A stretch of DNA of 55,660 bases from an uncultured Opitutia bacterium. GTDB taxonomy: Bacteria > Verrucomicrobiota > Verrucomicrobiia > Opitutales > UBA953. Shown here in pieces: positions 8,979-30,818 of the stretch. The stretch covers positions 1 through 55,660 of the forward strand of contig CAIOPO010000048.1 in assembly GCA_903860195.1 (NCBI GenBank). The letters are read 5' to 3'. Below the pieces are notes generated by a model. The model saw only the letters and a program-made list of their open reading frames with translations, was not told where the DNA came from and did not search any database. The translations under genes and the position numbers were made by a program. Every line of letters starts with the position of its first letter. The first letter of the stretch is position 1.

Positions 8979-9923
8979 ATGACCGCCAGCCGCATCCGCT
9001 GCGGGGTCGCCGGCACGGGTTCGCTCGGCCAGCACCACGCCCGCATCTACGCCTCCCTCCCGGGTGCCGAGCTGGCCGGAATCTATGAGCCCGACGACGT
9101 CCGGGCCGCCGAAATCTGCGCCCGGCACGCCTGCCGCCGCTTCGCCACCCTCGAGGAAATGGCGCAGCACTGCGACGCCGTCAGCGTGGTCGTCCCGACC
9201 AACCATCACGCCTCCGTGGCGCTGCCCCTTCTCCAGAAGGGAGTGCACCTGCTCATCGAGAAGCCCATCTGCGTCACTCTTGAGGAGGCCGCGCGCATCC
9301 TGGACGCCGCCGCCAAGGCCGACCGCATCGTGCAGGTCGGCCACATCGAGCATTACAACCCGGTGATGTCCTTCCTCGAGAAGACCGTCACTGACGCCCG
9401 CTACATCACCGCGGAGCGCCTGGCTCCCTTCACGCCGCGGGGCACGGAGGTCGGCGTCGTCCTGGACCTGATGATCCATGACATCGGCATCGTGCTCCAG
9501 CTCGCCAATTCTCCCGTCGAACGGATCGACGCCGTCGGCGTGTCCGTCGTCACGAGGACCGAGGACATCGCCAACGCGCGCATCGCCTTCCGCAACGGCT
9601 GCGTCGCCAACCTGAGCGCCAGCCGCGTCTCCCTGAAGAAGAACCGGGAGATCCGCGTCTTCCAGAACGGGAGCTATCTCTCCATCGATTTCATGCAGCA
9701 GAAGGGGCATTCCGTGCGGGTCGACCCTTCCGCCGAAGGCGGTTTCGCCAAGGAGGACCTGCCCATCGAGAAGGGCGAGCCGCTGGCCATCGAGCTGGGC
9801 TCCTTCGTCGCCTGCGTCCGTGAGCGCGCCACGCCCAAGGTGGGCGGCGAGCTCGGCCGCTCGGCGCTCGAAGTCGCGTTGCGCATCACCGAGCAGATCC
9901 GCGCCGGCATGGCGCGCCGATGA
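8979..9923 (+). CDS. Gfo/Idh/MocA-family NAD-dependent sugar oxidoreductase (GnnA-like)
   Basis: A 314-residue protein with an N-terminal Rossmann fold (GTGSLGQHH, 12-20) and the family lysine motif EKP (94-96), followed by the mixed alpha/beta substrate domain that includes GHIEHYNP. It overlaps lpxB by ATGA and is therefore co-translated with a lipid A enzyme. In some bacteria a related oxidoreductase, GnnA, oxidises UDP-GlcNAc at C3 so that GnnB can aminate it, giving lipid A with 3-amino sugars. No GnnB aminotransferase is visible here, so the UDP-GlcNAc role is an inference from context. Confidence 0.82.
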   Translation: MTASRIRCGVAGTGSLGQHHARIYASLPGAELAGIYEPDDVRAAEICARHACRRFATLEEMAQHCDAVSVVVPTNHHASVALPLLQKGVHLLIEKPICVTLEEAARILDAAAKADRIVQVGHIEHYNPVMSFLEKTVTDARYITAERLAPFTPRGTEVGVVLDLMIHDIGIVLQLANSPVERIDAVGVSVVTRTEDIANARIAFRNGCVANLSASRVSLKKNREIRVFQNGSYLSIDFMQQKGHSVRVDPSAEGGFAKEDLPIEKGEPLAIELGSFVACVRERATPKVGGELGRSALEVALRITEQIRAGMARR

Positions 9924-25240: not shown

Positions 25241-26956
25241 ATGCCCGAACACAACGAACCCGAAGAAATCCACGATGAGTCCGAGCCGACGTCCGGCCAG
25301 GACCGCATCGACCAGCGCAAGATCGCGGAGGAGGCCGCGCGCCGCCGCAAGGAGCTCCCGCTCCTCCAGCGCATCGTCAAGCACTTCTCCAAGGACCGCG
25401 CCAACTTCCGCGAGCTCGTCATCAACGGCGAGACCTTGGAGAAGCGCGTCGCCCTGCTGACCAACGGCGTCCTCGACAAGTTCGAGATCGAGCACAAGGG
25501 CGAGAACCGCATGGTCGGCGCGGTCTTCAAGGGCCGCGTCCAGAACCTCGAGGCCGGCCTGAAGGCGGCCTTCGTCGACATCGGCCAGCCCAAGAACGCC
25601 TTCCTGCATTACTGGGACATGCTTCCCGCGGCCAATGACTCGCAGGTCGAATTCATCCGCGACAACGAGTCCGCCGAGCAGAAGCAGCGCAAGGCCCGTT
25701 ACCAGGCGAAGGACATCCCCCAGCTCTTCCCGGCCGGCTCCGACATCGTCATCCAGGTCGTCAAGGACCAGATCGGCACCAAGGGTCCCCGTTCGACGAC
25801 CAACATCGCGCTCCCCGGGCGTTACGTGGTGCTGATGCCCTTCAGCGGCGCCTGCGGCGTCTCCCGCAAGATCGAGGACGCCTCCGAGCGGGAACGGCTC
25901 AAGGACATCCTCCGTTCCCTCACCATCCCCGAGGGCATGGGCGTGATCATCCGCACCGCGGGCGAGGGCAAGCAGGCCCGCTGGTTCGTGCGCGACCTGC
26001 ACATGCTCCTGCTGCGCTGGCAGAAGATCGTCGAGAAGATCAACCAGCCCGACCGCCGCCCCGTGCTCCTGCACAGCGAGCCCGGGCTCATCGAGCGCAC
26101 CGTCCGCGACTTCCTCACGGAGGAGGTCGACCGCATCCTCGTCGACAACGAGGAGGACTTCCGCCTGGTGCAGGAGCTGGTCGGCGAGGTTTCGCCCCGT
26201 TCACGGAGCCGGGTGGAGCTCTACTCGGACCCCATCCCGGTCTTCGAGCGCTACAACATCGAGCGCCAGATCGAGCAGCTCTTCCAGCGCCGGGTGCCGC
26301 TGCCCAGCGGCGGTGAGATCGTCATCGACGAGACCGAGGCCCTTACGGCCATCGACGTCAACACCGGCTCGCACAAGGGCGCCGGCAAGGACGGCAAGGA
26401 CTACATCGTCCAGGCGAACCTTGAGGCGGTGACCGAGGCGGCCCGCCAGATCCAGCTCCGCAACCTCGGCGGCCTGATCATGATCGACACGATCGACATG
26501 AAGAACCCGAAGGACCGCAAGAAGGTCTTCGACCAGCTCCGGGAGGCGATGGAGAACGACCGGGCCAAGCATCAGATCCTCCCCATCTCCCAGCTGGGCG
26601 TGCTGCAGATGACGCGCCAGCGTCACACCGAGTCGAACACCACCTCGATGTACACCGGCTGCCCGCACTGCCAGGGGCGCGGCATCGTGAAGAACCCCCG
26701 GACGGTCTCGGTCGAGGTCCAGCGCAAGCTGCTCAGCGTCATCCGCAAGCTGCGCGAGACCCACGGCCCTGACAAGGAGCTGGAGATCAACATCCTCCTC
26801 CATCCGGTCAACCTCGAGCGGATCGTCACCGAGGACCGCGACTTCTTCCGGGACCTCATGAAGTCCTGCAAGGTGCGCCTCGGCACCAAGGCCGACCCCA
26901 CCTACAGCGTCGAATCGTTCCGGCTCTTCGACGCCTCAGGCAAGGAGCTGCGCTGA
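25241..26956 (+). CDS. rng: Ribonuclease E/G
   Basis: A 571-residue endoribonuclease of the RNase E/G family for rRNA maturation and mRNA decay. After a charged N-terminal extension (1-60) there is an S1 domain (about 90-185, with GAVFKGRVQNLEAGLKAAFVDIG), the RNase H/DNase I-like catalytic core with the metal-binding aspartates D372 (AIDVNTG) and D416 (IDTIDM), and the zinc-link CPHC at 474-477. There is no long disordered scaffold tail, so it resembles RNase G in architecture. It is 7 bp after rodA and probably co-transcribed with it. Its last 21 bp overlap the convergent ATPase gene. Confidence 0.94.
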   Translation: MPEHNEPEEIHDESEPTSGQDRIDQRKIAEEAARRRKELPLLQRIVKHFSKDRANFRELVINGETLEKRVALLTNGVLDKFEIEHKGENRMVGAVFKGRVQNLEAGLKAAFVDIGQPKNAFLHYWDMLPAANDSQVEFIRDNESAEQKQRKARYQAKDIPQLFPAGSDIVIQVVKDQIGTKGPRSTTNIALPGRYVVLMPFSGACGVSRKIEDASERERLKDILRSLTIPEGMGVIIRTAGEGKQARWFVRDLHMLLLRWQKIVEKINQPDRRPVLLHSEPGLIERTVRDFLTEEVDRILVDNEEDFRLVQELVGEVSPRSRSRVELYSDPIPVFERYNIERQIEQLFQRRVPLPSGGEIVIDETEALTAIDVNTGSHKGAGKDGKDYIVQANLEAVTEAARQIQLRNLGGLIMIDTIDMKNPKDRKKVFDQLREAMENDRAKHQILPISQLGVLQMTRQRHTESNTTSMYTGCPHCQGRGIVKNPRTVSVEVQRKLLSVIRKLRETHGPDKELEINILLHPVNLERIVTEDRDFFRDLMKSCKVRLGTKADPTYSVESFRLFDASGKELR

Positions 26957-28840
26957 CCGGCGGGACGGCCGGAAGGCCAGCAGGCGCAGCCCGTTAAGGC
27001 AGACCAGGACGGTGCTGCCCTCGTGCACCGCCACGCCCAGCGTGAGCGGGGCGCCCGCGACGATGACGTAGCAGGCCATGCCGAGGGCGGCGCCGACCGA
27101 GATCGCCACGTTGACGCGGATGGCGCGCCGGGCGGCCCGGCTCAGTTCGATCGCGTCGACCAGTCGGCCGATGCGGTCGTCCGGCAGGACGACGTCGCTC
27201 GATTCCAGGGCGGCGTCGCTGCCGCGTCCTCCCATCCCGACCGCCACGTCCGCCGCCGCCAGGCCGGGCGCGTCGTTCACGCCGTCGCCGACCATGGCCA
27301 CGACCCGCCCCTCCGCCGAGAGCGCGCGGATCGCGGCCATCTTGGCGTCGGGGGTGAGCGCCGCCAGATAGGAGCCCACCCCGACCTGCTTCGCCGCCGC
27401 CGCGGCCGCCTCCTCGCGGTCTCCCGTCAGCATCACGGTCCTGACGCCCCGGCGGGCGAGTTCGGCGAGCGTCGGGGCGCTCTCCTCACGGATGCGGTCG
27501 ACCAGCGTGGCGCGCACGGTCACGACCCCGTCCGAAGCCCAGACCTCGCTGACGATCGCGCCCGGATCGACCGCCGCCGGCGGCAGCCCCGGACAGCCCG
27601 CGAACTCGCGGGTGCCGGCCGCCCATCGTCGTCCGTCGACCGTCCCCGACACTCCCAGTCCCGGCGACACGGAGAGTCCGCCCACGGGCAGCCTGCGGGC
27701 GCCTTCCTTCTCGCAGGCCCGCACGATGCCGGGCGCGAAGGGGTGCGTCGTCCCGGCTTCGAGGGAGAGCAGGGCGGAGAGGGCGCGCATCCGGTCGGCG
27801 TCGCGCGGCTCGACTTCCAGCGCGGCCACCTCGGGCTCGCCGGCCGTCAGCGTCCCGGTCTTGTCAAAGCAGACGCAGTCGACGTCGGCCAGCCGTTCCA
27901 CGGCGGCGCCGCCGCGGAAAAGGATGCCGTTGCGCGCGCCGGCCGCGATCGCCGCGAGCACCGCGGACGGAACGGACAGCACCAGGGCGCACGGGCTCAG
28001 GACCACGAGCAGCGTCAGTGAGCGGTAGAGGGCCGACTCCTCGCCGCCCGTCGCCGGCGATCCCGCCGCGATCCGCGCGGCGAAGAACGCCGCGCTGACC
28101 GCGATCGTGAAGACCGCGTACCGGTCGCCCCACCGGTCGATGGCGCGTTGCGCCGGGGCCTTGCTCTCCTGCGCCACCCTGATCAGGCGCACGATCCGGT
28201 GAAGCGCGCTGTCCTCCTGCCGGCGGAGCACCTTGCCGACCAGCCGGCCCCAGCCGTTGAGCGTCCCGCCCGACAGGGGGTCTCCCGGGCCCTTGCGCAC
28301 CGGACGGGCCTCGCCCGTGAGCGTCGACTCGTCGATTTCGCTGGCGCCGGACTCCGTCAGGCAGTCGGCGGGAATCAGCTCCCCCGGAAGCACCGCGACG
28401 CGGTCTCCCGGCCGCAGTGATTCCACCGGCACCTCGGTCTCCGCGCCCTCCGGCGTGATCAGCCGGGCCCGTCGCGGCGAGCGGTCCAGGAGGGCCTCGA
28501 TGGCGCCGCGCGTCCTCGCCATCGCGAACCGTTCGATGGCGCCGGCGGTCGAGAACAGGAACAGCAGCAGCGTGGCCTCCAGGGGCTGGCCGAGCGTCCA
28601 GGCCCCGCCGGCGGCGATGAGCATCAGCAGGTGGACGTCGATGCGGCGCGCGCGCAGGGCGGCCCAGGCCTCGCGCGCGGCCTCCCATCCTCCGGCCGCG
28701 CAGGCGGCGACGGCCAGGGCGCGCGCGGTTACGCCGTCCGCGGCCGCCGCGAGTCCGCCGAGCGTCCCGCACGCCGCCGCCAGGGCCGCCTCACGTCTCC
28801 AGCCTGCGGTCGCTCCGCGTTCCGCGTCTTGAGCGCACAT
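26936..28840 (-). CDS. P1B-4-type heavy-metal-transporting P-type ATPase
   Basis: A 634-residue inner-membrane metal exporter. The actuator motif is TGEA (about 175-178), the transmembrane metal motif SPC (282-284), the phosphorylated aspartate D326 of DKTGTLT, the P-domain hinge GDGVNDAPGL, and HEGST at about 606-610 in the penultimate membrane segment. SPC plus HEG(G/S)T defines group P1B-4 (Co/Fe/Zn/Ni-type efflux), and the absence of an N-terminal heavy-metal-associated domain fits. A TTG start at 28879 is possible; the ATG at 28840 is preferred. It overlaps the RNase E/G stop by 21 bp, convergently. The metal is not predictable from sequence alone. Confidence 0.92.
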   Translation of the reverse strand: MCAQDAERGATAGWRREAALAAACGTLGGLAAAADGVTARALAVAACAAGGWEAAREAWAALRARRIDVHLLMLIAAGGAWTLGQPLEATLLLFLFSTAGAIERFAMARTRGAIEALLDRSPRRARLITPEGAETEVPVESLRPGDRVAVLPGELIPADCLTESGASEIDESTLTGEARPVRKGPGDPLSGGTLNGWGRLVGKVLRRQEDSALHRIVRLIRVAQESKAPAQRAIDRWGDRYAVFTIAVSAAFFAARIAAGSPATGGEESALYRSLTLLVVLSPCALVLSVPSAVLAAIAAGARNGILFRGGAAVERLADVDCVCFDKTGTLTAGEPEVAALEVEPRDADRMRALSALLSLEAGTTHPFAPGIVRACEKEGARRLPVGGLSVSPGLGVSGTVDGRRWAAGTREFAGCPGLPPAAVDPGAIVSEVWASDGVVTVRATLVDRIREESAPTLAELARRGVRTVMLTGDREEAAAAAAKQVGVGSYLAALTPDAKMAAIRALSAEGRVVAMVGDGVNDAPGLAAADVAVGMGGRGSDAALESSDVVLPDDRIGRLVDAIELSRAARRAIRVNVAISVGAALGMACYVIVAGAPLTLGVAVHEGSTVLVCLNGLRLLAFRPSRRSAQLLA

Positions 28841-28963
28841 CGCGCGTCCGAAGATGCGGCGCGCCCGCGCTTGCGTCAATCGCGGTCGCGTATCCGATTC
28901 GCGTTTACAACTCGTCCGTCGCTCGCTCCGGAACGGCGCTCCGACGGCGGGTGAAATTTCCTC

Positions 28964-28991
28964 TTGCGCATTCGCGCACGTCTCCTAATAA
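28964..28991 (+). promoter_or_regulatory. Candidate sigma-70-type promoter for the RHH gene
   Basis: TTGCGC (28964-28969) and TAATAA (28986-28991) are separated by 16 bp. Transcription would start near 28998, some 17 bases before the GTG at 29015. That argues against the TTG at 28964 as the translation start. Confidence 0.55.
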
Positions 28992-29014: not shown

Positions 29015-29410
29015 GTGACGAACCGAACCGAACCCCTCAGCGAAAGTCTCATCACCGTGTCGCTTCCCGCGAAGCTCCACTCCGAGACCGTCGCCTTCCA
29101 GCAGAGGTCGGGCTTCGCCACTCTCTCCGAAGCGATCCGGCACGCGCTGGACCGCTTCACCGACTCCCGTCACGACCTGGAGGCCCCCCGGTCGCGCCAA
29201 GTTTCTTTCCGAGTACCGTCGGAGCTCCGCAGCAGGATCACCCGCCAGGCGCGCAACGCCCGGGTGAGCGTGGGGCGAATCGTCAGGGTGGCGCTTCAGG
29301 CGCTGCCCTTTAACCCAACAACGACCCAAAATAAGGAAAAAACTATGGCTAAGAAGAAGGCCGCCAAGAAGAAGGGCGCCAAGAAGGCCACCAAGTCCAA
29401 GAAGAAGTAA
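29015..29410 (+). CDS. Double ribbon-helix-helix protein with lysine-rich histone-like tail
   Basis: A 131-residue protein. Two ribbon-helix-helix-like units are visible: strand ITVSLP plus two helices (13-48, LSEAIRHALDRF) and strand QVSFRVP plus two helices (62-97, VGRIVRVALQAL). RHH proteins bind DNA through the paired strands; two in one chain could form a pseudo-dimer. Residues 111-131 are almost only Lys and Ala (MAKKKAAKKK at the start), like the tails of chlamydial histone-like proteins. That tail begins with a Met preceded by AAGGA, a good ribosome binding site, so a 21-residue peptide could also be made separately from 29345. The GTG start is chosen from the promoter position. Neither function is established. 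Confidence 0.62.
   Translation: MTNRTEPLSESLITVSLPAKLHSETVAFQQRSGFATLSEAIRHALDRFTDSRHDLEAPRSRQVSFRVPSELRSRITRQARNARVSVGRIVRVALQALPFNPTTTQNKEKTMAKKKAAKKKGAKKATKSKKK
29345..29410 (+). CDS. Possible separate 21-residue Lys/Ala-rich peptide (in-frame internal start)
   Basis: The ATG at 29345 lies in frame within the RHH gene and is preceded by AAGGA with an 8-base spacer, stronger than most start sites in this window. The peptide would be the basic tail alone (12 lysines). It is either the C-terminal tail of the RHH protein, a separate peptide, or both. Confidence 0.35.
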   Translation: MAKKKAAKKKGAKKATKSKKK

Positions 29411-29418
29411 TTCTTCTT
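29399..29418 (+). repeat. Stem-loop with the stop codon in a GTAA loop
   Basis: AAGAAGAA (29399-29406) pairs with TTCTTCTT (29411-29418). The four-base loop GTAA, of the GNRA type, contains the TAA stop codon of the lysine-rich tail. There is no T-tract after it, so it is not a normal terminator. Confidence 0.6.
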
Positions 29419-29466
29419 AGACTTTCCGTCCTTCGGGGCGGGTGGCGCCGGCTCAGCCGGTCAAAC

Positions 29467-29498
29467 AAGGACCCTCGCAAGGGGGTCCTTTTCTTTTT
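29467..29498 (+). terminator. Rho-independent terminator after the RHH gene
   Basis: AAGGACCC (29467-29474) and GGGTCCTT (29483-29490), 8-bp stem with an 8-base loop, followed by TTCTTTTT. Confidence 0.9.

Positions 29499-29564: not shown

Positions 29565-30818
<1,254 letters not shown>

Follow-up and report, generated by a model that had tools for sequence, protein, structure and literature searches.

The window analysed here, a stretch of 55,660 nucleotides from an uncultured Opitutia bacterium whose genome is 85% complete, contains a reading frame on the plus strand (29015–29410; GTG start, TAA stop at 29408–29410) that encodes a 131-residue protein, and the question raised by this locus is whether the gene specifies that protein only or also its basic C-terminal tail as a free peptide. 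Judging from comparisons of sequence, we assign a probability of about 0.7 to the reading that one gene has two products, i.e., a tandem ribbon-helix-helix (RHH) protein that carries an H1-like tail, and the tail alone, a peptide of 21 residues that would be made by internal initiation (29345–29410, plus strand). The gene is flanked by a divergent P-type ATPase gene upstream (26936–28879, minus strand; Pfam E1-E2_ATPase) and by an isocitrate dehydrogenase gene, icd, downstream (29565–30818; Pfam Iso_dh). All 36 distinct genus sequences retain the GTG start, and codons 1–10 are under synonymous constraint in this set. A putative promoter was located by eye at 28964–28991 on the plus strand (TTGCGC 28964–28969, 16 nt, TAATAA 28986–28991); CTTGCGCA and a downstream A/T-rich box are repeatedly present at the genus loci, and a sigma-70 consensus scan gave no match to the element. 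At 28964–28975, TTGCGCA is followed in most relatives by AGCGC, yielding an inverted repeat across the putative −35 region, a possible operator through which the RHH protein could regulate itself. The transcript end is assigned to an intrinsic terminator (29467–29490, plus strand), whose ten pairs are intact in each of the 17 sequences aligned.

The initial annotation described the protein as two RHH units followed by a 21-residue Lys/Ala tail, and this is corroborated by the reading frame, by an AlphaFold2 model and by a sub-threshold Pfam RHH_1 match. The first unit (residues 10–50; 29042–29164, plus strand) is modeled as a β-strand (10–18) and two helices (19–32 and 37–47), and has no Pfam match; the second (residues 60–97; 29192–29305, plus strand) is modeled as a strand (60–68) and two helices (69–82 and 86–95), and its residues 63–96 match RHH_1 just under the cut-off (19.7 versus 20.5 bits; E = 8e-4). 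A linker connects the second unit to the tail, MAKKKAAKKKGAKKATKSKKK, which begins at ATG 29345. The model was built from 17 rows and has a mean pLDDT of 68.7, with values of about 80 across both β-α-α units, as expected for an RHH_1/CopG-like fold, and a disordered tail. Both modeled units superpose on known tandem-RHH chains: Foldseek ranks F-plasmid relaxosome chains first (probability 0.98–1.00; best for 9f0y/9f0z, at 1.00 and TMq 0.51–0.55), followed by AvtR (4hv0; probability 0.35–0.44), and single-chain Arc was also matched. The relaxosome RHH chain is presumably TraY, the hit title giving no chain identity. With E-values of 6e-3 to 1.1 and sequence identities of 11–15%, the matches to tandem-RHH chains are consistent with a likeness in fold, which is no proof of common descent, and with a one-chain RHH pseudo-dimer. 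When the PDB was searched with a sequence profile, only 2k9i was returned (E = 0.024).

Stand-alone H1-like basic proteins of the Chlamydia Hc1/Hc2 type are encoded by separate genes; their composition is like that of the free tail, whereas here the tail is nested in an RHH gene. To our knowledge, neither the F relaxosome chain nor AvtR has an H1-like tail or a nested product, and we know of no separate tail product of HupB. Both the relaxosome chain and AvtR resemble the modeled protein in placing two RHH units in one chain as a pseudo-dimer, and AvtR, from Acidianus filamentous virus 6, is described as a DNA-binding monomer that contains two RHH motifs in tandem (PMC5569661). A Lys/Ala-rich, eukaryote-like tail of the H1/H5 kind is described as required for nucleoid association of mycobacterial HupB (PMC5676037), which likewise joins a bacterial DNA-binding domain to a Lys/Ala-rich C-terminal tail; however, this domain has the HU fold in HupB and is an RHH domain here, so the 131-residue protein may work like HupB without being a member of that family. 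The short form of SpaO and Cas11b are reported as cases, among bacteria and archaea, where the C-terminal part of a protein is also made alone via internal in-frame initiation (PMC13059759, PMC11899642), but these are other proteins, and not a DNA-binding domain with a basic peptide. Each element has precedents, i.e., TraY/AvtR-like tandem RHH, a HupB-like tail and internal in-frame starts. The open-licence literature searched yielded no paper on an RHH protein that bears a tail of H1 type, or on a nested H1-like product, which is not taken to mean that none has been published.

The architecture had initially been called rare, which can hold at most globally, since a 10-row profile recovers the double RHH gene from 204 of 372 genomes in the order. 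The same profile matched 71 of 79 genomes of the family and 37 of 288 genomes of the phylum, all 37 within the same order, and a single-sequence search placed the gene in 35 of 37 genus genomes (counting that of the window) and in 4 of 20 further genomes. The gene is truncated at a contig end in some genus members. Named relatives are mostly Verrucomicrobia/Opitutae MAGs, including Opitutia bacterium UBA957 and UBA7397. Among the genus loci, repeats included, icd is present in 63 of 71 and the ATPase gene in 66 of 71; outside the genus, icd is nearby in 7 of 97 loci (L033, L071–L074, L139, L152), most of the 97 being only about 1.8 kb long. At one locus (L040; G026:C258, about 9539–9760), RHH1 is fused straight to a Lys tail, and RHH2 and the inner start are missing, perhaps by true deletion or misassembly.

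Within the genus, the tail is preceded by an internal Shine-Dalgarno (SD) core, AAGGA (29333–29337, plus strand; duplex energy −6.2), followed by a 7-nt spacer and the in-frame ATG 29345, an arrangement found at all 30 full genus loci first fetched. That the tail has an AAGGA-ATG of its own was already recognized in the initial annotation, and its conservation exceeds chance; the accompanying statement that such sites are rare in the window is contradicted by 13 occurrences of AAGGA-N4-9-ATG versus 3.5 expected in shuffles, with none of 100 shuffles as high. Constraint was measured on 39 genus loci, from which one without a stop was dropped, leaving 36 distinct coding sequences. Per codon, the pairwise synonymous difference amounts to 0.36 for RHH1, 0.24 for RHH2, 0.20 for the tail and 0.05 for the linker, and a comparably low level is seen at the GTG start (0.08 in codons 1–10). 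A least-changes count gives a single synonymous change versus 11 amino-acid alternatives for the 12 linker codons just ahead of the ATG, and 2.1 synonymous changes per codon for RHH1; the 11-codon run free of synonymous change has p < 1/20000 (20000 permutations, stratified by codon degeneracy). The ATG is present in 36 of 36 sequences and AAGGA in 34, while bases flanking the latter alter the amino acids (K/N/T, E/D, K/T, T/P); in L169 and L170, from two divergent species of the genus, AAGGA is lost and the ATG kept. These counts indicate that the constraint before the ATG acts on nucleotides, not on protein, and the 12 codons concerned (29309–29344, plus strand) overlap a putative internal translation-initiation region. 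By comparative evidence, then, the gene has a conserved inner start with initiation signals.

Across the order, about 100 loci outside the genus were taken from the 204 matching genomes, picked to cover genera and not as a random sample. A Met lies near the start of the basic tail in 73 of 131 distinct gene ends; removal of two with the Met before a non-basic stretch (L114, L120) and of the short L166 left 70 distinct tails, each with a single Met exactly at the tail start. Met is absent from the 671 linker residues and occurs once among the 4587 tail residues after the start Met, and the second tail residue is Ala in 40, Pro in 25, Val in 4 and Lys in 1, i.e., Ala or Pro in 65 of 70. Because 31 of the 70 tails are from the window's own genus (hand count), the cross-family rows are the stronger part of this evidence. 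The junction Met occurs in nine families (f1, f3, f11, f14, f20, f21, f22, f23 and f24) with widely diverging linkers; most sampled members of f14 have no long tail, and in f24 the Met is less informative, being embedded in a run of Lys (KGKMVKK). Tails reach more than 200 residues in relatives. Among 27 genera with tails of at least 25 residues (hand count), all sampled members of 16 have the Met, and the short form appears to be dispensable, since nine genera lack the Met in every sampled member and in two more (g22 and g36) only some sampled members have it. Some Met-less tails have a GTG in the right area (L031, L076, L095, L151), and these were excluded from the counts.

The initial annotation had named the constant joining of RHH and tail in relatives as a point against a dual product, and there is indeed no stop between them in any tailed locus fetched, in the genus or the order, so the long product exists wherever translation begins at the first start. 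One half of the refuting evidence named there is thus present. The nucleotide-level constraint and the single junction Met of nine families give the suggestion of two products strong comparative support. The same joining suits an account in which the long protein is the sole product and the junction ATG a relic from the time when an H1-like gene became fused to an RHH gene, as do the nine long-tailed genera without the Met and the clustering of the Met label on the tree, where 8 changes among 100 rows (from too few columns to judge ancestry) mean that it may simply be inherited. However, a relic would not freeze synonymous sites while amino acids vary, nor would it leave nine families with just one Met, and Ala or Pro behind it, amid diverging linkers, and we therefore consider this account unlikely, though worth keeping in mind.

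The SD is lineage-specific. Anti-SD duplex energies of −5 or better are found at 52% of 73 junctions versus 15% of 3023 background ATGs, with the excess deriving nearly all from g1 and g25. Junctions outside f1 have no SD, so that the start is indicated there by the Met and the openness of the RNA alone. With gene starts called crudely, as the first ATG of long ORFs, SD-like sites are present at 35% of them in the window, 27% in G019, 40% in G128, 2% in G125 (f11) and 9% in G055 (f20); the SD-less junctions of f11 and f20 thus fit their own genomes, each represented by one genome, but the g23 junctions have none although G128 has SDs at 40% of its predicted starts, which counts against an initiation site. 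An order-wide SD signal, missing at the f11, f20 and g23 junctions, was ruled out. RNA structure dips at the Met junctions, with a mean of −6.4 kcal/mol per 60 nt versus −15.0 in the RHH part of the same genes (72 loci, the doubtful L114 and L120 counted as Met), whereas Met-less tails show no such dip (−12.5 versus −13.1; 17 loci). Compared with synonymous shuffles, the mean z is +0.30 for energy and +0.82 for unpairedness, and the openness is due mainly to the linker amino acids, with a small synonymous part.

Alternatively, the constrained stretch could be another RNA or DNA element, such as an operator, an antisense transcript or a processing site, of which the SD and ATG are just a part. 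The 12 codons further upstream are also low, at 0.58 synonymous changes per codon, and contain a possible 9-bp hairpin, as such an element might; yet the constraint peaks in the 33 nt adjoining the ATG and spans AAGGA, and at this stretch Rfam gave no match and the sigma-70 consensus scan no internal promoter, which makes another element distinctly improbable. Chance, by which the Lys codons (AAG/AAA) of a Lys-rich tail would easily place AAGGA-like strings close to a Met, as the abundance of such sites in the window might suggest, is barely credible, since Lys codons cannot give ATG, Met is absent from the rest of the linkers and nearly so from the tails, and this explanation, already disfavored by the conservation tests, is opposed by the permutation test on the synonymous run.

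If the gene does have two products, transcription would proceed from the putative promoter near 28964–28991, ribosomes would initiate at GTG 29015 to give the 131-residue form, and a second initiation at ATG 29345, independent or coupled, would give the free basic peptide, of 21 residues here. The RHH units would form a DNA-binding pseudo-dimer within one chain, and the disordered, Lys-rich H1-like tail would add sequence-independent DNA affinity to the long form. By analogy with the families concerned, the fusion may act on the nucleoid at sites chosen by the RHH part and held by the tail as in HupB, and the free peptide may serve as a diffuse counter-ion or condenser that compacts DNA non-specifically. 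A broader version, to which we give even odds, is that the order (Opitutae MAGs) makes its H1-like protein chiefly from the internal start of a tandem-RHH gene, with one transcript fixing the ratio of site-specific anchor to free, condensing tail, and that the start was kept while its type, with an SD or without one, switched between lineages. If true, a bacterial chromatin protein and a free H1-like tail would come from one message with their ratio built into the gene, providing a simple, testable model for the balance between specific and non-specific DNA compaction in bacteria; the gene would be a dual-coding one likely overlooked by standard annotation, and a conserved Met combined with silent-site constraint would be a usable sign of other nested small proteins.

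The tail as a separate gene elsewhere was searched for by pattern within and outside the genus, and rejected. Hits to ATGGCNAARAARAAR, taken with additional degenerate positions, occur in 47 of 55 genus genomes, at one site each except in G001, G012 and G029, which have two; a looser tail pattern matched 4 of 15 outside genomes, and none of its six non-junction matches that were read out is a free H1-like gene. A bias-corrected protein search is weak for this purpose because it missed the tail of G055 itself. One of the six matches, in the same genome (L200; G055:C1, 1711600–1712900), is a different gene, whose Lys/Ala-rich, H1-like N-terminus is fused to a further domain.

A possible RNA hairpin, GGGUGGCGC-UUCAG-GCGCUGCCC (29286–29308, plus strand; 9 bp), appears in the centroid fold and not in the minimum-energy fold. 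It lies in the last RHH2 codons, where synonymous changes are few, some 25 nt 5′ of the internal SD, and could be a standby or processing element; its arms are nearly invariant in the genus and partly broken in L030, which weakens the support for it. As initially noted, the stop codon sits in the GTAA loop (29407–29410) of a predicted stem-loop (29393–29424, plus strand), whose 8-bp stem pairs AAGAAGAA (29399–29406) with TTCTTCTT (29411–29418) and is extended by AAGTC/GACTT. This hairpin is conserved in the window's genus (g1) and the neighbouring g23 (L071, L072), and not in the other genera looked at. In alignment A3 the six inner pairs are invariant and one of the two outer pairs varies, from U-A to G-U; covariation says little, because the A3 pairs hardly vary. 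A part for the stop hairpin in a dual-product device was rejected, as it is restricted to g1 and g23 and no connection with the inner start was found; it might contribute to RNA stability or to termination. Two more small hairpins, with some pair-keeping changes in relatives, lie at 29425–29466, after the stop stem and before the terminator.
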